Below are positions 2,964 through 12,170 of a DNA stretch of 51,137 nucleotides, one piece after another. This stretch comes from Oscillibacter sp. (GTDB lineage Bacteria > Bacillota > Clostridia > Oscillospirales > Oscillospiraceae). Position numbers and translations under genes: made by a program. The stretch spans positions 1-51,137 of the forward strand of contig JAFXQV010000011.1 in NCBI GenBank assembly GCA_017526785.1, given 5' to 3'. The notes under the pieces are model-generated. The model ran no database searches. It had not been told where the DNA came from and was given only the letters and a program-made list of their open reading frames with translations. Every line of letters begins with the position of its first letter. Position 1 is the first letter of the stretch.

Positions 2964-3085
2964 GGACGCGTCACGGGGAACGGAATTTCAACTTTTCGGA
3001 GAAAGTCCGTTTCCCCTTTTTGCCGCTTTTGGATGAAAAAGCGGGTGAAAAAGCACAGAAGTGTCTTTTCTGAAAGGGTGGTAGC

Positions 3086-3427
3086 ATGGAGCGGAAAAAG
3101 ATATGTCCAGTGTATCACGGGCTGGCGGCGGTACTGGACGGCGACCCGGAAAAGTACGGTGACAGGGCTATGGATTATCACAGATTCATAGCAACGAAAT
3201 ACTGTTGTCAAGAGTGCCGGGACATTATGAGCGGACAGCAGAAGCGCATTTCCAACATGTACCGGAAGCGTGACCGCCGGGAATATCAGCGGACAGCGCT
3301 GGACGCAATCAATGCCTTGAAAGAGCGCGTCAGCCTGTTGGAGCGGGAAAACCGCGCAAGCCGTCAGTATATCGCGGAACTGGAAAAGAAGCTGTCAGCC
3401 ATAGAAAGTCCTGTACCGCGTTTTTAG
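3086..3427 (+). CDS. Small Cys-motif/coiled-coil protein of the element
   Basis: 113 aa, preceded by GAAAGGGTGGT at a good distance from ATG. The N-terminal half holds CCQEC plus an upstream Cys (ICPVYHG), a possible metal-binding cluster. The C-terminal half (about 75-108) is a charged heptad-like helix, LKERVSLLERENRASRQY, that should form a coiled coil. Its position behind the primase remnant and ahead of a non-coding palindromic tract suggests an element-specific role, but I do not recognise a family and infer no function. Confidence 0.6.
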   Translation: MERKKICPVYHGLAAVLDGDPEKYGDRAMDYHRFIATKYCCQECRDIMSGQQKRISNMYRKRDRREYQRTALDAINALKERVSLLERENRASRQYIAELEKKLSAIESPVPRF

Positions 3428-3537
3428 CGGCGGCGGGTAGAATTACCGACAGACGCGGAAACGCTGTCAGAAGCAAAGAAAACAGGCAAAATGAAAGCTG
3501 GGAGTGAATGCTTCCGGCTTTCTGCTGTCCCGCCGCC

Positions 3538-4500
3538 CTCTCATTTGAAATGAGAGCCTTTTTTATGGCCTCCAAAATCTCCGATAATTGATAGTAATCG
3601 TTCAACAGTCAGAATTTACTATCATTCTTTTTTCCGGGAAAACTTCGGAGAAACTCTTTCGGAACTTGTGCCGAAATGTCCCGCCGCCGGGTTTATGGAT
3701 TTGGAATCCGCAAACCGCGCTGGAAGGGTTGGATTTGGAATCCATACCCACAAGCGGGTATTCCGTCACTGAATCCAAAACAGGATTGAGCGGCGGCGGG
3801 TGTGTCCGAAATGGACACTCCCACAAGCTGGGGAAAGACGCTTTCAGCCTGATATGAGACAGAAAGTCAGCGGCGTGCGTGTACTCCATGAACGGCGTTT
3901 CAGTCCAAAAAATAGCTCTATTCCCCCAAAGGGTACTCCGAATCGGAGACTCCTTTTAGGGTGTCGCCGGGTTTACGCATTTGAAATGCGGAAACCTCCC
4001 TCTGACTGGCGGCATTTGAAATGCGAGCAGTGACGGTCACATTTAGGACATAAATAGGACATTTTTCCCTGAACGGACATTAGGCCAATTTTGGCCTGAA
4101 CTTTCCCAAAAATGAGAAAGTCCCGTCACTCTCCCAAAAGTCGCGTTTCACGACTTTTCGCCACTTGCGGGGAAAGGGTGTCACTTGAAGCGACACCCTC
4201 ATTTGAAATTAGGGCGTTTCCCATGACGCCACGCCCCGTATCGCGTTTCACGCTATAGGGTATCATTTGAAATGAGAGCCTTTTCCGGCGTGGTACAAAC
4301 CTGTACCCCGAAACAGGGTGGCGGTTTACCACTCAACGCCGTTTTGTCGTTGAATTTACGCATTTGAAAGAGGAAAGACGCAACGGGAATCTGATACTGT
4401 CAAGGGTATACGTTGAATCGGAGTACCCTTTTCGTCACTTGTGCCGAAAGGGTGTCACGACCCCCTAACTTGAAATTAGGCTGTACCCTGAATCGGGGTA
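3538..4500. repeat. Dense array of short palindromes, about 25 in 960 bp
   Basis: Non-coding tract made almost entirely of short inverted repeats. Examples: CTCTCATTTGAAATGAGAG (3538-3556); GGATT/AATCC at 3697-3709 and 3731-3743; GTGTCC/GGACAC 3802-3818; CTCCG/CGGAG 3936-3948; CGCATTT/AAATGCG 3976-3990; GCATTT/AAATGC 4012-4024; AGGCCAA/TTGGCCT 4082-4097; ACTTTC/GAAAGT 4100-4121; AAAAGTCG/CGACTTTT 4136-4158; AGGGTGTC/GACACCCT 4175-4199; TCATTT/AAATGA 4263-4275; TCAACG/CGTTGA 4333-4353; AAGGGTA/TACCCTT 4402-4430; CCTAA/TTAGG 4464-4480; TACCC/GGGTA 4484-4500. The core ATTTGAAAT occurs exactly five times with different, self-complementary arms. Two units carry an extra outer GGTTT/AAACC helix (3690-3716, 3970-3996). 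Arms change in compensating pairs while the centre stays, which points to selection for structure. Function unknown. Confidence 0.8.
3589..3624. repeat. Inverted repeat TGATAGTAA, copy 1
   Basis: TGATAGTAA (3589-3597) and TTACTATCA (3616-3624) form a 9-bp inverted repeat with an 18-bp spacer. A second copy with the same arms and a similar spacing lies at 5616-5650. Two copies in one small element suggest a binding site for an element-encoded protein. Confidence 0.6.
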
Positions 4501-4644
4501 GCGGTTGCCATTTTCCTTGCTTCTGACGGGCTTTCAGTCTGTCAAGGTATCCGGAGCATTCCCGGCACCATGTAAGCGTTCACGGGCTTTCTATGGGCTT
4601 TGTGGGAGTGTCCCGCCGCCGAGAAAAAGAGCCGGAATCAATTG
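4501..4644. other. Gap without a recognised gene
   Basis: Continuation of the non-coding tract behind the palindrome array. It contains one more TCCCGCCGCC block (4610-4619), also seen at 3528 and 3679 and inverted at 3429 and 3789. Open frames here run antisense to the 57-aa gene or lack ribosome-binding sites, and I see no gene. Confidence 0.5.
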
Positions 4645-4818
4645 TCAGTATTTCATTATCGCCGTGACTTTCGCGGACGGATACACCTCTTTCGCATTGC
4701 GGATAAACTCTACCATATCCTTTGGCGTCCACTGGGAATCGCTGTCACATTCCAGACGGATTTCCACGTTTTTCCGCTTCATGGAATCCGCGATTTTCGC
4801 AAACACTTTTTTGAACAT
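4645..4818 (-). CDS. Small element protein, 57 aa
   Basis: Encodes MFKKVFAKIADSMKRK... ending ...KVTAIMKY. The start is decided by AGGAGG seven bases upstream of ATG (4818) and by a promoter at 4848-4876, which together make this small gene convincing. The N terminus is basic and helical; the rest (RLECDSDSQWTPKDMVEFI) is mixed. No family is recognised. Placement next to the toxin-antitoxin pair in the same orientation suggests an element accessory or regulatory protein. Confidence 0.65.
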   Translation of the reverse strand: MFKKVFAKIADSMKRKNVEIRLECDSDSQWTPKDMVEFIRNAKEVYPSAKVTAIMKY

Positions 4819-4847
4819 GCCGTTCGCCTCCTGTTGATGTTTTGCCT

Positions 4848-4876
4848 ATTATACCACGCCGCCGCCGATAACGCAA
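4848..4876 (-). promoter_or_regulatory. Promoter of the 57-aa gene
   Basis: Read on the minus strand: TTGCGT (4876-4871), 17-bp spacer, TATAAT (4853-4848). The transcript would start about 35 nt before the ATG at 4818. Confidence 0.7.
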
Positions 4877-4935
4877 TTGTTTGTGACGCGTTCTCCGCTA
4901 CCCCGCCGCCTGTCAGCGTGAAAGACAAGGTAGCC

Positions 4936-5003
4936 TGACTTTAATGACTTAAATGACTTTATTCGACGCACACGGAATTTAGTCATTTAAGTCATTTTAG
5001 TCA
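4936..5003. repeat. 23-bp inverted repeat built of TGACTTAA-like heptads
   Basis: Left arm 4936-4958 and right arm 4981-5003 pair over 23 bases with two mismatches, including a perfect 15-bp core ATGACTTAAATGACT. Each arm is itself three direct repeats of ATGACTT/TGACTTA type. It sits between the 57-aa gene promoter and the toxin stop. It could be a terminator for converging transcripts or, given the iterated heptads, an iteron-like protein-binding site. Confidence 0.7.
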
Positions 5004-5073
5004 TGCCGTCAGACAGCGAGAAAAAGCGCCGGAATCAATCGGGCAGAGTGTCCGACGGTTCCGGCGTTATTCA

Positions 5074-5328
5074 CTAATAGCGGTTATAAATCTCTCCACG
5101 GTTCCCGGCGTCCACGACGTAGACAGTCAGTCGCCCGTTGTCCACGGAGTAAATGACCCGGTAATCGCCGACACGGAGACGGAACAGGCCTTCATTGCCC
5201 TGTAAGGGTCGTCTGTCTCCAATGTCGGGCAGTTTCCAGATAGCCGACAAAATGCGGCGCTTCTGGTTTTGCGGCTGTCTGTTGATGAATTTCAGGGCTT
5301 TGCGGTCAATCTGAATGTCATAATTCAT
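5074..5328 (-). CDS. RelE/ParE-family type II toxin
   Basis: 84 aa, the usual size for the family. The start MNYDIQIDRKALKFI and the core LPDIGDRRPLQG, GLFRLRVGDYRVIYSVD and VYVVDAGNRGEIY match the RelE/ParE fold: the basic strand with RLRVGDYRVIY and the C-terminal R..IY. RelE-type toxins cut mRNA on the ribosome; ParE-type toxins block gyrase. Sequence alone favours the RelE-like branch (YafQ/RelE pattern). Its start overlaps the antitoxin gene by 11 bp, typical for translational coupling. Confidence 0.85.
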   Translation of the reverse strand: MNYDIQIDRKALKFINRQPQNQKRRILSAIWKLPDIGDRRPLQGNEGLFRLRVGDYRVIYSVDNGRLTVYVVDAGNRGEIYNRY

Positions 5329-5539
5329 CCGGCGACACCCCGCACTCTTTCAACGCTTCCGCGAACGGCACGAAATCGCCGCGTTCCGGGTCGTTCAAAT
5401 AGTCCTGATAGAGCTTTGCACAGAAAGCGTCATCGGCGGCCTCATCCGCTGTCAGCCCTTCCAGATAGGCGATTACATAGCCCATTTTGTATTCCGGCAC
5501 CAACTCCAAAAGAGCCGTTGCGCGTTCCTTTTCACTCAT
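5318..5539 (-). CDS. Antitoxin partner of the RelE-type toxin
   Basis: 73 aa, directly upstream of and overlapping the toxin. The start at 5539 is set by GAAGGGAGATAACGCT in front of ATG; a longer reading frame exists upstream but lacks a ribosome-binding site. The product is acidic, as antitoxins are, and ends in FAEALKECGVSPDEL, resembling the toxin-wrapping tails of RelB-like antitoxins. A DNA-binding N terminus is not obvious, so assignment leans on gene order. Autoregulation could use the TGATAGTAA inverted repeat 77 bp upstream. Confidence 0.75.
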   Translation of the reverse strand: MSEKERATALLELVPEYKMGYVIAYLEGLTADEAADDAFCAKLYQDYLNDPERGDFVPFAEALKECGVSPDEL

Positions 5540-5615
5540 AGCGTTATCTCCCTTCTGTGCCGCTTTGCGCGGCCTCTGACGTGTTTCCGCCACGGGGCGG
5601 GTTCTTGCCGTTGAT

Positions 5616-6198: not shown

Positions 6199-6366
6199 AT
6201 GAAAAAGTACAACGTGAAAGAAATCATGAAAGCCGCGCGGGAAATCCACAGAAGCGGCGATGTGACGATGAGTGAAGCCCTGAAAACCGCGTGGGGCGTT
6301 GCCAAAGCCAAGGTAGGCGCGTCTCCGATGGATAAGACAATTCAAGTCCTTCTGCCCCTGCCATAG
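6199..6366 (+). CDS. Small element protein, 55 aa, ending inside attR
   Basis: Starts MKKYNVKEIMKAAREIHRSG; AAAGGAG lies at ideal distance before ATG 6199. The middle, MSEALKTAWGVAKAK, is a short helical segment seen in small proteins of Firmicute phages and integrative elements. The last residues, IQVLLPLP, are read from the tRNA-derived att repeat, and the stop TAG lies at 6364, inside it. So the C terminus depends on which attachment site is joined: after excision the frame would read on in the circular form. Function unknown. Confidence 0.65.
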   Translation: MKKYNVKEIMKAAREIHRSGDVTMSEALKTAWGVAKAKVGASPMDKTIQVLLPLP

Positions 6367-6369
6367 AAA
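6341..6369 (+). other. attR, 29-bp attachment repeat
   Basis: Exact copy of 540-568 (3' end of tRNA-Trp plus six bases). It marks the chromosome-distal end of the element. Recombination between the two copies would restore tRNA-Trp followed by the chromosomal terminator at 6367-6402. Confidence 0.9.
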
Positions 6370-7640: not shown

Positions 7641-9059
7641 ATGGAGAAACTGCGGAACGATTTCCGGACAGACACGGCGTATATGGACGTGGTTCTCGGC
7701 GTGGAGCGTAACTGCGATATGGTCAGCCGGGATTACGTCATAGGCGGACGGCGCGGGAAAATCTGGGTCGTGGACGGCTACGGGCTGGATTCCACATTGG
7801 AACGTATGGGGGCGTTTTGGCTGTCGCTGTCCGCGGCCGCCCTCGACGGCCTGGCGGATATGCAGGAGTTCGTGGACAGGTTCGTGACCTTCGCGGAAGT
7901 CAGCGTCAGCGCCGACACGAAAGAGCTTGTGACGGCGGTTCTGCTTGGGAAAACGCTGTTTCTGCTGGACGGGCTTTCGGGCGGAGCCTTAATCGACTGC
8001 AAGGAGTACCCGTGCCGGGGCGTGGACGAGCCGCCCGACGGAAAGGTGTTGCGCGGTTCCCACGACGGTTTTATAGAGGCGCTGGTGCCGAATATGGCGC
8101 TTCTGCGTCGGCGTATCCGCGACCCCCACCTGACCATGGAGGCACACCAAATCGGCGACCGTTCCCATACGGATATCATCCTTTGCTATCTCGACGACAA
8201 GGTAGACAAGGCGTTACTGAAAGCGGTTCGGGAGAAACTCCGCGAAGTCGACGTACACTCCATCACGCTCGGACAGGAGAGCGTGGCGGAAGTCCTCCGC
8301 CCGAAACAGTGGTACAACCCCTTTCCGAAAGTCCGCTACACCGAACGCCCCGACAGCGCGTCGGCCAGTATCTTGGAGGGGAATATTGTCCTCATGGTGG
8401 ATAATTCCCCGTCCGTCATGCTTCTGCCGACGACCTTTTTTGACTTCACGCAGGAGGCGAACGAGTTCTATTTCCCGCCCCTCGTGGGAACTTATCTGCG
8501 CCTGTTGCGGATTGTGGTCTTTCTGCTGTCATTGTTCATTACGCCGTTCTGGTATCTGACGGTCAACCACCCGAATCTGCTGCCGCACTGGCTGAATTTT
8601 CTGTCCGCGCCGGAACCGGTGTCGTTAAGCATGCTGGCGCAGTTATTAGTCGTCGAATTTCTGATTGACGTGCTGAAATTGGCGTCCCTGAACACGCCCG
8701 ATTCGCTGTCTAATTCGTTCTCCATGCTGGGCGCGCTGATTCTTGGAGATTTCGCCGTCCGTTCGGGCTGGCTGGGGTCGGAAGTGCTGGTTTATATGGC
8801 GTTCGTGTCGGTGGCGGCCTTCGCCCAGCCGAGTTACGAAATGGGCTACGCCTTCAAACTTATCCGGGTTTCCCTGCTGATTCTGACAGCCGTGTTTGAT
8901 GTGTGGGGCTTTGTCGGCGGCGTCGCGGGTCTCGTTGTACTGCTCGCCACGACAAAGCCCATGTTCGGCAAGGGCTACCTCTACCCGCTGATTCCGTTCA
9001 ACGCGAAAGCCTTGCGGCGTCTGCTGTTCCGGGTTCCCATCAGCCCCGACAATACGTGA
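7641..9059 (+). CDS. spoVAF: SpoVAF/GerA-family spore germination protein
   Basis: 472 aa, close to SpoVAF and shorter GerAA-type proteins. The N-terminal cytosolic part reads VIGGRRGKIWVVDGYGLD, a SpoVAF-like start, and then shows the family signature SHDGFIEALVPNMALLRRRIRDP with MEAHQIGDRSHTDIILCYL at about residues 135-190. The C-terminal half has four to five membrane segments (about 290-315, 335-350, 365-385, 390-410, 420-440). SpoVAF acts with the SpoVA dipicolinate channel and germinant receptors in the inner spore membrane. Here it is not beside spoVA genes but behind a membrane protein gene. ATG is preceded by ACAGGAGGCGGCGTC. It shows that the host belongs to a sporulating lineage. 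Confidence 0.85.
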   Translation: MEKLRNDFRTDTAYMDVVLGVERNCDMVSRDYVIGGRRGKIWVVDGYGLDSTLERMGAFWLSLSAAALDGLADMQEFVDRFVTFAEVSVSADTKELVTAVLLGKTLFLLDGLSGGALIDCKEYPCRGVDEPPDGKVLRGSHDGFIEALVPNMALLRRRIRDPHLTMEAHQIGDRSHTDIILCYLDDKVDKALLKAVREKLREVDVHSITLGQESVAEVLRPKQWYNPFPKVRYTERPDSASASILEGNIVLMVDNSPSVMLLPTTFFDFTQEANEFYFPPLVGTYLRLLRIVVFLLSLFITPFWYLTVNHPNLLPHWLNFLSAPEPVSLSMLAQLLVVEFLIDVLKLASLNTPDSLSNSFSMLGALILGDFAVRSGWLGSEVLVYMAFVSVAAFAQPSYEMGYAFKLIRVSLLILTAVFDVWGFVGGVAGLVVLLATTKPMFGKGYLYPLIPFNAKALRRLLFRVPISPDNT

Positions 9060-10461: not shown

Positions 10462-11604
10462 TTACGAGTAACTGAAATCCGTGTCCATGGTAATCTGGAA
10501 CGTGTAGGCCGGATACAGCGCCTCGGCCGTCTCGGACACTTTCCGATAAGCCGCCTGTCTGTCCGGCGCGTCGAAACTCACGATAACGTCAAAGCGTACC
10601 CGTTTTTCCTCTTCGTTGAGGTAGAAGCCGTGCATTTGGAGAATATGCGGGCAGTCGAGGACGGCCTTTTTCAAGGTCTCCCGCATTTCCAGCGCGGCGG
10701 CGTCGCGCGTGTTCAGGGAGTAGACCCCGACCGCCGTCAGAATCACATGGTGCCTCTGGTAGACGGTCGACGTAATCTGCCGGATGAGGTCGTCTAACTG
10801 GTTCGCGGAGAACGTGTCCGGGACTTCGATGTGCAGGGAACCTTGGAACGTGTCGGGGCCGTAGTTGTGCAGTACCAAGTCGTACGCACCCGACACGCCC
10901 GGGAACTCACAGACGGTATCCCGGATAGCGCGCGCGAGTTCGGGGCTTGCGCGTTCGCCTAAAATCCGGGAAATAGCCTCTTTCAGCATTCCCACGCCCG
11001 AGCGGATAATCACGGCGGAAATCACGGCACCCAGCCACGCCTCCAGCGACACATGAAAGAGCAGGTACACGGCCGCCGCCGCCAGCGTGGACGCCGAAAT
11101 CAGGCAGTCCATGAAGGCGTCCTCCCCGGAGTTGACAAGGGAATCCGAATCGACGCGCTTGCCGACGGCCTTGACGTAGCGCCCCAGCGCGAACTTCACC
11201 AGCACGGCCACCACCAGAATCACGAGGCCGGGGGCGGTGTACGCCGGGGTATCGGGGCGCAGAATCTTCTTGACCGACTCCACAAGGGACGTTATCCCGG
11301 CGTACAGAACCAGCGTGGAAATGAGCATGGAAGTGAGGTACTCCACCCGGCCGTGTCCGAAGGGGTGCTTTCTGTCCGGCTCTTTTCCGGCGAGTTTGGT
11401 TCCGACAATCGTAATCAGGGACGAGGCCGCGTCCGAAAGGTTGTTGACCGCGTCCAGCGTCACGGCAATGGAGCGCGACAGAATCCCGATAACGGCCTTG
11501 AACGTCGAGAGAAACAGGTTCGCCAGAATCCCAATAACGCTCGTACGCACAATCACGGCCTCTCTGGAAGAATCGCGCTCTGTCAGTCGCTTTTTGATGT
11601 CCAC
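10462..11604 (-). CDS. Cation diffusion facilitator (CDF) transporter
   Basis: 380 aa, longer than minimal CDF proteins because of an extended cytosolic tail. TM-region metal motif LDAVNNLSDAASSL (about residues 50-64) and the loop DRKHPFGHGRVEYLTS match the CDF family, which exports Zn, Mn, Fe or Co by proton antiport. Six membrane segments end near residue 215. The C-terminal ferredoxin-like regulatory domain (about 220-300) is followed by another 75-residue region. Starts with GTG, preceded by AAGGAGG. Upstream lies a 7-bp inverted repeat that may be its operator. The metal cannot be told from sequence by eye. Confidence 0.88.
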   Translation of the reverse strand: MDIKKRLTERDSSREAVIVRTSVIGILANLFLSTFKAVIGILSRSIAVTLDAVNNLSDAASSLITIVGTKLAGKEPDRKHPFGHGRVEYLTSMLISTLVLYAGITSLVESVKKILRPDTPAYTAPGLVILVVAVLVKFALGRYVKAVGKRVDSDSLVNSGEDAFMDCLISASTLAAAAVYLLFHVSLEAWLGAVISAVIIRSGVGMLKEAISRILGERASPELARAIRDTVCEFPGVSGAYDLVLHNYGPDTFQGSLHIEVPDTFSANQLDDLIRQITSTVYQRHHVILTAVGVYSLNTRDAAALEMRETLKKAVLDCPHILQMHGFYLNEEEKRVRFDVIVSFDAPDRQAAYRKVSETAEALYPAYTFQITMDTDFSYS

Positions 11605-11619
11605 GAAATACCTCCTTGT

Positions 11620-11637
11620 TATGGCATGCGTGCCATA
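11620..11637. promoter_or_regulatory. Palindrome TATGGCA/TGCCATA before the CDF gene
   Basis: Perfect 7-bp inverted repeat with a 4-bp centre (11620-11626, 11631-11637), ending about eight bases before the ribosome-binding site of the transporter. Position and symmetry fit an operator, or a small leader hairpin that controls access to the ribosome-binding site. Confidence 0.5.
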
Positions 11638-11711
11638 TTTATTCGTCCGAATCCCGCTTCATAACAGAACACGGCGGACATGGCTGTTACCGTCCGCCGC
11701 GACAGTTCGCG

Positions 11712-12170
11712 TCAAGCGTTGCTGAGCAACTTATAGAGCAGTTTATAGAGCAGTTCGCTTTCCTCGGGCGCGAGACACACGAGTTTCGACATTTCATAGG
11801 GGATTTCGAGTGCCTGTTCCCGCAGGGCTTCCCCGGCTTCGGTAATGGTCACGCGTAAACTGCGTTCGTCCACGGGGTCGCGCTGGCGCGTCAGCAGGCC
11901 TTTCGACTCCATGCGCTTCAACAGAGGCGTGAGCGTCCCGGAATCGAGATAGAGCCGCTGTCCAAGTTCCTTGGCGGTGACGGTGCGCTGTTCCCATAGT
12001 ACCATCATCGTGATGTATTGGGTGTAGGTCAGTCCCACCCGTTCGAGGTAGGGCTTGTATTTCTTGACGGCCTCCCGCGCGCAGGCGTAGAGCGGGAAAC
12101 AGAGCTGATTTTTTAACAGGAGCGATTCCGGCTGATAGTTCCGCTCCGTCGTTTCATGGGTCATGTTCAT
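11712..12170 (-). CDS. MarR-family regulator, OhrR type
   Basis: 152 aa. The N-terminal LLLKNQLCFPLYACARE has the redox Cys (Cys24) of OhrR proteins, and the helix-turn-helix reads LGQRLYLDSGTLTPLLKRMESKGLLTRQR, followed by DERSLRVTITEAG for the wing. OhrR senses organic peroxides through this Cys and then leaves its DNA. Tyrosines near the Cys (LTYTQYITMMVLWEQ) are also conserved. No ohr gene is adjacent; the neighbours are a flavodoxin upstream and a CDF transporter downstream, so its targets may be those. Confidence 0.87.
   Translation of the reverse strand: MNMTHETTERNYQPESLLLKNQLCFPLYACAREAVKKYKPYLERVGLTYTQYITMMVLWEQRTVTAKELGQRLYLDSGTLTPLLKRMESKGLLTRQRDPVDERSLRVTITEAGEALREQALEIPYEMSKLVCLAPEESELLYKLLYKLLSNA

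Follow-up and report, generated by a model that had tools for sequence, protein, structure and literature searches.

What is the non-coding tract at positions 3538–4500 of a 51,137-nucleotide stretch of Oscillibacter sp. DNA (hereafter, the window), in which one short palindrome follows another, and why would such palindromes be kept? We show here that the tract is a non-coding mosaic array of short covarying hairpin modules with relatives, most of which lie in mobile elements. Beyond what the initial annotation of the window had noticed, the array resides within a decayed tRNA-Trp integrative element, and its words recur in other arrays and in antirepressor genes.

An Array of Short Hairpins

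We scanned 3538–4500 for hairpins with a stem of at least 5 bp and a loop of 3–9 nt and found 22 that do not overlap, which together form 126 bp across the 963-bp tract; in 200 dinucleotide shuffles, the count averaged 5.7 and never exceeded 14. Stems of at least 6 bp number 10 (shuffles: mean 1.6, maximum 5). The initial annotation had described about 25 palindromes comprising almost every base. The array itself is borne out by the comparison with shuffled sequence, whereas its count is 22–23, several units being imperfect, and clean hairpins take up 400 of 991 bp (∼40% of bases). Folded as RNA, another of the checks proposed at the outset, the stretch 3520–4510 has z values of −7.2 on the + strand and −10.3 on the − strand (20 shuffles per strand), and of about −6 on both strands when pairing is capped at 60 nt (60 shuffles). 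Among 105 tiles of 960 bp across the window, the three that overlap the array rank first, second, and fourth (60, 40, and 34 paired bp); the third-ranking tile, with 36 paired bp, lies away from the array, and the mean of all 105 is 13.6. The longest open run in the array is no longer than in shuffles (p 0.50). Terminator-like sites in 3400–4650 number 3 against 1.7 ± 1.2 expected, which is no clear excess for the array overall; the unit at 3538 has the G+C-rich stem and subsequent T-run of an intrinsic terminator.

As first reported, there are exactly five copies of the centre ATTTGAAAT; in the 51-kb window, all of them are inside the array (3543, 3979, 4014, 4201, and 4265); its reverse complement has no copy in the window, and the 2.34-Mb genome to which the window belongs holds 24 copies of ATTTGAAAT. 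At the left end, hairpin CTCTCATT-TGA-AATGAGAG (3538–3556, + strand) is the terminator-like unit that precedes a T-run, and its sequence recurs at 4263–4284. The extra outer GGTTT/AAACC helix noted earlier on two units is confirmed for both members of repeat family D4: copy 1 (3685–3721) has a ATTTGGAAT centre, and copy 2 (3965–4001) is the hairpin CGCATT-TGA-AATGCG, with arms GCA/TGC in place of the GGA/TCC of copy 1. A third unit (4297–4327) bears the reversed outer helix, AAACC/GGTTT. The hairpin scan also identified GTGTCC-GAAAT-GGACAC (3802–3818) and AGGGTGTC-ACTTGAAGC-GACACCCT (4175–4199). Five hairpins match the covariance model R1 described below, all of them members of its training set: a CGAATCG hairpin of loop class YGAAWCR (3932–3952, + strand, E 0.037), terminator-like at 3936–3948; AAAGTCG-TGAAACG-CGACTTT (4137–4157, − strand, E 0.00014); the imperfect TATAGCG-TGAAACG-CGATACG (4237–4257, − strand, E 0.031); ACCC-CGAAACA-GGGT (4302–4322, + strand, E 0.021); and TACCC-TGAATCG-GGGTA (4482–4502, + strand, E 0.0029). 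The last is the site of an altered duplicate of the hairpin at 4302–4322 (repeat family D8), and the diverged duplicate pieces within the array include 3685–3721/3965–4001, 4154–4184/4428–4458, and 4301–4326/4481–4506.

Two further features were noted in and around the array. Recurring inverted pairs of CGGCGGCGGG and CCCGCCGCC(G/C) at 3428, 3531, 3680, 3791, and 4612 could close larger domains round groups of hairpins. A long imperfect inverted repeat made of AATGACTTAAATGACT/AGTCATTTAAGTCATT (4932–5011), with weak Rfam microRNA matches far below threshold, is perhaps an origin or a regulator site.

A Small, Degraded Integrative Element in tRNA-Trp

The array sits in a small, degraded integrative element of ∼5.8 kb in tRNA-Trp. 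At the start of the window lie 5S rRNA and three tRNAs, and the tRNA-Trp gene (487–562, + strand; ARAGORN and Rfam tRNA) provides the integration site at its 3′ end, where the 29-bp left att repeat (540–568, +) is an exact direct repeat of the right one (6341–6369, +). Between the two lie a truncated tyrosine integrase gene reduced to the C-terminal catalytic part (705–1232, − strand; PF00589 positions 36–171 of 172, E 3e-20), a truncated Toprim/DUF3987 primase-helicase gene (1304–2851, + strand; PF13148 positions 3–219 of 364, E 4e-42, with the Toprim match below cut-off), a 113-aa ORF that precedes the array (3086–3427, +), and a ParE-type toxin gene (5074–5328, −; PF05016 E 4e-8). An ORF with no family match (5318–5593, −) overlaps parE and, judged by its position, is probably the antitoxin partner; small further ORFs are also present. 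Because the integrase and primase genes both match part of their profiles only, we consider the element to be in decay. The two fragments adjoin head to head (1232–1304), as expected of an internal deletion of the element.

G+C content is 52% in the element, 49% in the array, and 60% from 6401 onward, and beyond ∼6.4 kb most of the scanned ORFs with a family match resemble ordinary chromosomal genes. The scanned ORFs of the element include no relaxase or packaging gene, and a specific origin of transfer or packaging signal, among the options named in the initial annotation, is not supported for the window itself. The integrase matches integron integrases only far below cut-off. Relatives of the primase occur at E ≤ 1e-20 in 16 of 295 genomes of the order, its own genome counted, and in none of the viral contigs; the 113-aa ORF has no relatives in viral contigs, genome contigs, or the 295 order genomes besides its own.

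Relatives Identified by Loop and Stem

Blastn with the window array gave no match in plasmids or phages. Among 60 genomes, 3 matched, one of them its own; the two foreign genomes accounted for three matches of 23–31 bp, whose surroundings hold no hairpin array and which we took to be chance. A first similar array, at 8030–8620 of locus L048 in genome G328, was met by reading around primase relatives, and its sequence is also public as L362, titled uncultured Clostridia bacterium. Blastn of the L048 array in 200 genomes of its family yielded one other genome, G354, with 88% identity over 139 bp. From these three arrays (window, L048, and G354) we drew up four loop classes: YG[A/T]TTCR-like with a 7-nt loop (CGTTTCA, TGAAACG, and CGATTCG), CACAAGTG/CACTTGTG, CA-W4-TG (CATTTTTG and CAAAATTG), and ATTTGAAAT. 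The 51-kb window contains 14 words defined by stem and loop, and the 800 bp that begin at 3699 hold 11 of these. Over 1.74 Mb of loci obtained by word search, arrays included, the mean is 0.134 words per 800 bp.

The loop-and-stem search revealed at least 12 further arrays, 2 in viral contigs (L164 and L115, 4 words each) and 10 in genomes from the window’s order or titled Clostridia, Firmicutes, or kin. These include arrays in contigs titled uncultured Clostridia (L318, 8 words), Candidatus Merdivicinus (L335, 6 words), uncultured Firmicutes (L330, 5 words), uncultured Clostridiales (L311, 5 words), and Ruminococcus sp. (L298, 5 words). L357 (Pseudomonadota, 4 words) was left out of the count, its hairpins lying in and around a Bro-N antirepressor gene, and the count also excludes L354, L355, and hairpin-dense, word-poor viral loci (e.g., L169, L182, and L073).

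R1, a covariance model of the 7-nt-loop class built from 25 hairpins (alignment A1), matched 71 of the 295 order genomes at E ≤ 0.1, with ∼30 matches expected by chance. When the 83 loci round these matches were scored by script, three reached at least 4 words per 800 bp (G000, the window’s own genome; G328; and G105). Inspection of five new R1 loci identified arrays in G105, G175, and G329 and none in G319 and G066; arrays are thus present in at least 5 of the 295 order genomes. A class-wide search matched 27 of 341 genomes at E ≤ 0.03 (∼10 matches expected); the 27 new loci retrieved held at most 2 words per 800 bp. All of these array counts are lower bounds, because R1 covers one loop class and the large searches used stricter filters. 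In G000, R1 matches cluster in the window array only: of 10 matches at E ≤ 10, the array accounts for 4, and the remaining 6 stand singly (for this one loop class, with 150 of 356 candidates scored).

Other loci were inspected and set aside. L018/L061 (G055) have dense hairpins upstream of a primase gene and represent another kind, with different loops and tandem copies; at 11400–11900 and 4600–5300 of L061, near-identical GTTCAC-AAA-GTGAAC units recur every ∼44 bp, and TTGTAACC-TAA-GGTTACAA units also occur there, upstream of the primase gene. Hairpin-rich stretches in L013, L022, and L057 look coding or A+T-rich, and L189, L192, L194, L197, L423, and L407 were not counted as arrays. By reading, the viral contigs L189, L194, and L197 contain GGGTCAAAAATGACCC-type palindrome repeats inside apparent phage replication-initiator genes, possibly origin repeats. 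Of 161 matches to GGTGGYGTTTCACCACC (array ones included), 124 fall in long open runs (150 codons or more) in many frames and were discarded as array evidence. Coding sequence was likewise rejected as an explanation for most arrays; somewhat long open runs occur in 2 of 13, namely L318 (p 0.02) and L066r (p 0.03), the latter of which holds Bro-N pieces.

Conserved Loops and Paired Changes in the Arms

We compared 13 arrays: those of the window, L048, L066, L164, L115, L318, L335, L330, L311, L298, L479, L457, and L432. In stems of at least 6 bp, each exceeds all 200 of its shuffles, a result that is descriptive because the arrays were picked for hairpins. Nine of the ten arrays counted contain 12–31 hairpins and L115 contains 7, over spans of 0.3–1.4 kb. 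The words common to arrays are ATTTGAAAT, CGTTTCA/TGAAACG, CACAAGTG, and CATTTTTG, often with arms that are not in common; in some common words, the arms are intact as well, such as GGTGGTGAAACGCCACC in L048, L318, L335, L330, and L298. Local alignments among the first ten arrays revealed no conserved module order. Two ATTTGAAAT hairpins of the window (3970–4024) are homologous to L318 (82% over 55 nt, with an E of 3e-9 that applies to this small set), and the first of them also matches L164, which aligns with the window at 95% over 22 nt. L048 and L066 share 88% identity over 139 bp, yet have different hairpins at one place within this stretch.

Pairwise change of the arms around conserved loops, as the initial annotation had held, is supported by these alignments, mostly through homologous units of other arrays. 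At the paired positions of query stems in 163 partly redundant local alignments among the 13 arrays, 16 of 17 double changes are still paired (wobble included) and 1 is unpaired; 749 positions are unchanged, and a one-sided change has produced G.T or A.C in 29 and broken the pair in 24. Sliding the partner by 1–3 columns as a control gave 5–8 double changes of any kind and 96–121 single changes. One of 15 listed double changes lies within the window, and the rest are in homologous units of other arrays. Examples of such units are CGGTCATTTTTGACCGAAAGTT (L066r), CGGACATTTTTGTCCGAAAGTT (L335), and CGCTCATTTTTGAGCGAAAGT (L318). The A1 pair table shows covariation too, although its rows were selected as hairpins and its score is, therefore, not independent evidence.

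Paired changes could also have a neutral origin. Palindromes become perfected by misaligned synthesis, and this process could mend chance imperfect palindromes in unselected DNA, such that arms match without selection. It would account for the paired changes and for the mixed loop orientation described below, and the window element is indeed decayed. However, it does not predict identical loop words in different bacterial families, recurring kinds of neighbour genes, or a fixed position in Bro-N genes, and we regard a neutral origin as improbable.

Neighbouring Genes and Strand Bias

Selected ORFs were scanned around 13 arrays, and most arrays adjoin integrase, relaxase, primase, or regulator genes. 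An integrase lies within 2.5 kb in 9 of the 13 (window, L048, L067, L335, L330, L311, L298, L488, and L490), a primase or helicase gene is found in 5 (window, L048, L335, L489, and L490), and a relaxase stands beside the array in 3 (L311, L488, and L489); no relaxase was seen in the ORFs scanned for the window element, L298, L318, and L164. The order is HTH repressor, array, and large serine recombinase in L048, with a DUF3987 primase on the other side; HTH, array, and serine recombinase in L067; and array and serine recombinase in L330. L335 has a tyrosine integrase, a small ORF, the array, and a Toprim/AAA_25 gene; L298 has an ORF with a sub-threshold RHH match, the array, DUF6809, and a tyrosine integrase; and L311 has a tyrosine integrase, an ORF, the array, a MobA/VirD2-type relaxase, and NikA/MobC. 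In L488 (G105), a MobL relaxase is followed by the array, an HTH_17 excisionase-like ORF, and a tyrosine integrase; in L489 (G329), the array lies between primase genes and a MobA/MobL relaxase; and in L490 (G175), the order is integrase, ORF, AAA_25, array, and DUF6061. A sigma-70 region-2 ORF adjoins the arrays of L164 and L318, where nothing else was recognised, and a Bro-N/ANT antirepressor is located at the array of L115.

Loops are mostly A-rich on one strand in L311 (11:1), L335 (14:2), L066 (17:6), L330 (9:2), L318 (15:7), and L298 (8:4), whereas A-rich and T-rich loops are mixed in the window (9:8), L048 (6:7), L164, and L115. Mixed arrays excluded, the A-rich strand is the integrase strand in all six decidable arrays upstream of an integrase (L311, L335, L067, L330, and L298 by loop count; L488 by reading, with 3 of 4 loop words). 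With the rows of A1 oriented so that the loop is A-rich, the pair that closes the loop is U.G in 11, U-A in 7, C-G in 6, and C.A in 1. Fold energy is better on the A-rich strand in L311 (−45.5 vs. −21.8 ± 5.6 in shuffles) and L298 (30.1 vs. −0.3 ± 7.9). Together, the strand data favour a function as a single strand, either RNA or ssDNA. Orienting the transferred T-strand from the direction of the relaxase under the usual strand convention gave, by reasoning, no consistent relation across arrays.

If the single strand is RNA, the array would be transcribed as a putative structured RNA, serving as a long leader of the integrase operon (e.g., a processive antiterminator or insulator like canT or put) or as a free decoy RNA for a hairpin-binding protein. 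The loop orientation towards the integrase, the preponderance of U.G over C.A, and the fold energies of L311 and L298 all point in this direction, and Tn916 offers a precedent in canT, which its description, as far as we draw on it, presents as a cis-acting 452-nt multi-stem-loop antiterminator, most likely RNA (PMC11658703). We nevertheless consider transcription unlikely to be the explanation. Loops are mixed in four arrays, among them the window and L048, which is also upstream of an integrase; L330, L335, and L066 have no strand preference in fold energy, and in L048 fold energy leans away from the integrase strand. Summed over the six oriented arrays, the A-loop strand has 29 G.T and 20 A.C mismatches, with L066 reversed, and several A1 rows are copies of one word. 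Moreover, the L490 array is downstream of the integrase, with words that by reading are mostly T-rich on the integrase strand, and the window array has 1 promoter-like site against 0.9 expected.

Array-Type Hairpins in Bro-N Antirepressor Genes

The Bro-N profile PF02498 had 37 matches in 28 of 197 order genomes and none in the window’s own genome. In 30 Bro-N genes of the order (L518–L547), a perfect stem of at least 9 bp is present in 15, in every case at residues 32–59 of the domain stretch, against 0.6 genes expected from synonymous shuffles (maximum 3 in 200). Such stems occur in 8 of 168 flanking 270-bp tiles and in 136 of 3192 other genome tiles. The arms of these hairpins differ between the 15 genes, and an array-type loop is present in 3 of them (TGAAACG in two and CG-AAA-CG in one). 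Among ten phage Bro-N genes, hand-picked from 40 listed of 495 records, one (Enterobacter phage Tyrion) has a stem of at least 9 bp, and E. coli K-12 dinD, which we take to be a Bro-N gene, has no stem of 7 bp or more. The Bro-N hairpin is, hence, frequent in this bacterial order and not general.

Array-type words were found inside the Bro-N genes of L115, L357, and L509. At ∼1025–2133 of L509, a broken AntA-type frame stands beside a Bro-N/ANT gene, with array-type hairpin words in both; the word in the Bro-N gene is in frame (DGVAFHHLTD). In turn, some words of the arrays can be read as codons of the Bro-N variable loop: GVVKRHPVP in L048, KISCKGVVKRH in L318, and GVAKRDPLP in L330. Single matches of this kind are weak (E 0.29–0.44), with L318 reaching 0.002 with another query. 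Clear Bro-N pieces are present in two arrays, L067 (E to 4e-28) and L048 (one piece, E 5e-10), and absent from the window array. L067, the array of G354, contains several pieces from the middle of the gene in both orientations, with partial copies round a hairpin loop. The pieces in these two arrays suggest that some arrays arose through recombination.

The hairpins could then be exchange modules: structure-guided recombination or template switching would swap whole hairpins and pieces of modular regulator genes among mobile elements, and the arrays would collect them, with other functions unneeded. Support comes from the Bro-N pieces of G354 and L048, from the stems of the order’s Bro-N genes at one position, from the different hairpins at the same place in L048 and L066, and from the lack of a conserved module order in local alignments. 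We find this proposal doubtful. A bias of loop strands towards the integrase does not follow from it; in addition, the window array lacks a Bro-N piece and its genome a Bro-N match, and long stems are scarce in the phage genes and missing from dinD. The modularity of antirepressor genes has long been noted, and a broader proposal would unite the arrays and the Bro-N hairpins in one system, with a shared vocabulary of modules that is read by loop and stem, not by the sequence of the arms, and moves between mobile elements. It would act as a structure-addressed site, either one at which antirepressor modules are exchanged or a decoy titrating a regulator that binds hairpins, e.g., the antirepressor. 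Such a system seems to us improbable.

Comparison with Known Families

A search with 4227 Rfam models found only the 5S rRNA and three tRNAs in the window above gathering threshold; in 3000–5200, two microRNA matches (E 0.15 and 0.31) are far under their thresholds and outside the array. Nor did the titles and abstract beginnings of the literature that we searched describe such arrays, a scope that mostly excluded subscription papers and leaves absence unproven. These results agree with the initial annotation, which knew of no described family and had set the tract apart from CRISPR arrays and iterons. CRISPR arrays have identical repeats at regular spacing, and iteron origins have direct repeats of one sequence, also regularly spaced, whereas most copies here are well under 100% alike and their spacing is irregular. 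Rickettsia palindromic elements also lie inside coding genes, with conserved arms, and are insertions. Palindromes in coding genes are common to both; however, the arms of the arrays vary, and the Bro-N domain here is, by reading, not visibly increased in length.

REP/BIME sequences, characterized in the source cited as short palindromes in high copy in bacterial genomes, resemble the array in their palindromes (PMC8266576). In contrast to their conserved arms and many dispersed copies, the array has varying arms and conserved loops, and, with a model for a single loop class, its own genome shows one cluster only. An array of like modules is absent from the cited description of canT, and we separate canT (as well as put, EAR, and conAn) from the present arrays by description, not by sequence. 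ROOL, GOLLD, and other large ornate RNAs, introduced in a survey cited here in part as large structured non-coding RNAs with phages among their hosts (PMC7567579), have Rfam models, none of which matches the window. Each of the hairpin families used for comparison has conserved arms, requires a fixed spacing, or is described by a sequence model; in the arrays, the loop and the pairing are conserved.

A Candidate Platform on Single-Stranded DNA

The hairpin modules would be kept because they function as a folded single strand. Our leading, still tentative, explanation is that the array may be a structure-recognised platform on the element’s ssDNA in rolling-circle replication or transfer, namely a start region for the complementary strand like an sso or a primase-loading site. 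The complementary strand would start at the array on the single-stranded DNA of the element. We place this possibility first on account of the array’s setting in an element and of the importance ascribed to structure in ssos: sso1 of ICEBs1 lies after nicK and has three stem-loops, and the portion of its description used here states that function likely depends on structure besides or instead of primary sequence (PMC4595007). Within the limits of that description, the array is like sso1 in being non-coding, in having several stem-loops, and in belonging to an integrative element, and the arrays of L311 and L488 follow a relaxase gene as sso1 follows nicK (PMC4595007). The hairpin excess, the non-coding tract, the words common to arrays of other species, the paired changes, and the mobility-gene neighbours support such a platform. 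A large non-coding region that holds an origin has a parallel in the phage satellite PLE, for which the part of the source cited reports a ∼3-kb non-coding region with its origin and an abundant non-coding RNA (PMC7567579).

Several observations raise doubt about an sso-like platform. In nine of ten arrays the hairpins number 12–31, with recurring loops and spans of 0.3–1.4 kb, in contrast to the three stem-loops described for sso1 (PMC4595007). The A-rich loops on the integrase strand and the excess of T.G over C.A (11 vs. 1 in A1) suit RNA at least equally. The lack of a relaxase in the window element, L298, L318, and L164, as far as their ORFs were scanned, also weakens the case, and the Bro-N pieces in two arrays hint at an origin by recombination. 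In the window, where integrase and primase are both truncated, the array is for this reason probably a relic.

If the modules are selected, the arrays would bear on the completion of ssDNA, the control of integrase, or the exchange of regulator modules in such elements. If instead the hairpins arise by exchange, they would reflect structure-guided shuffling in antirepressor genes. Blastn finds no relatives of the window array in plasmids, phages, or genomes related to its own, whereas a search by loop and stem does; under selection, such modules would constitute a class of sequences that is invisible to ordinary similarity search.
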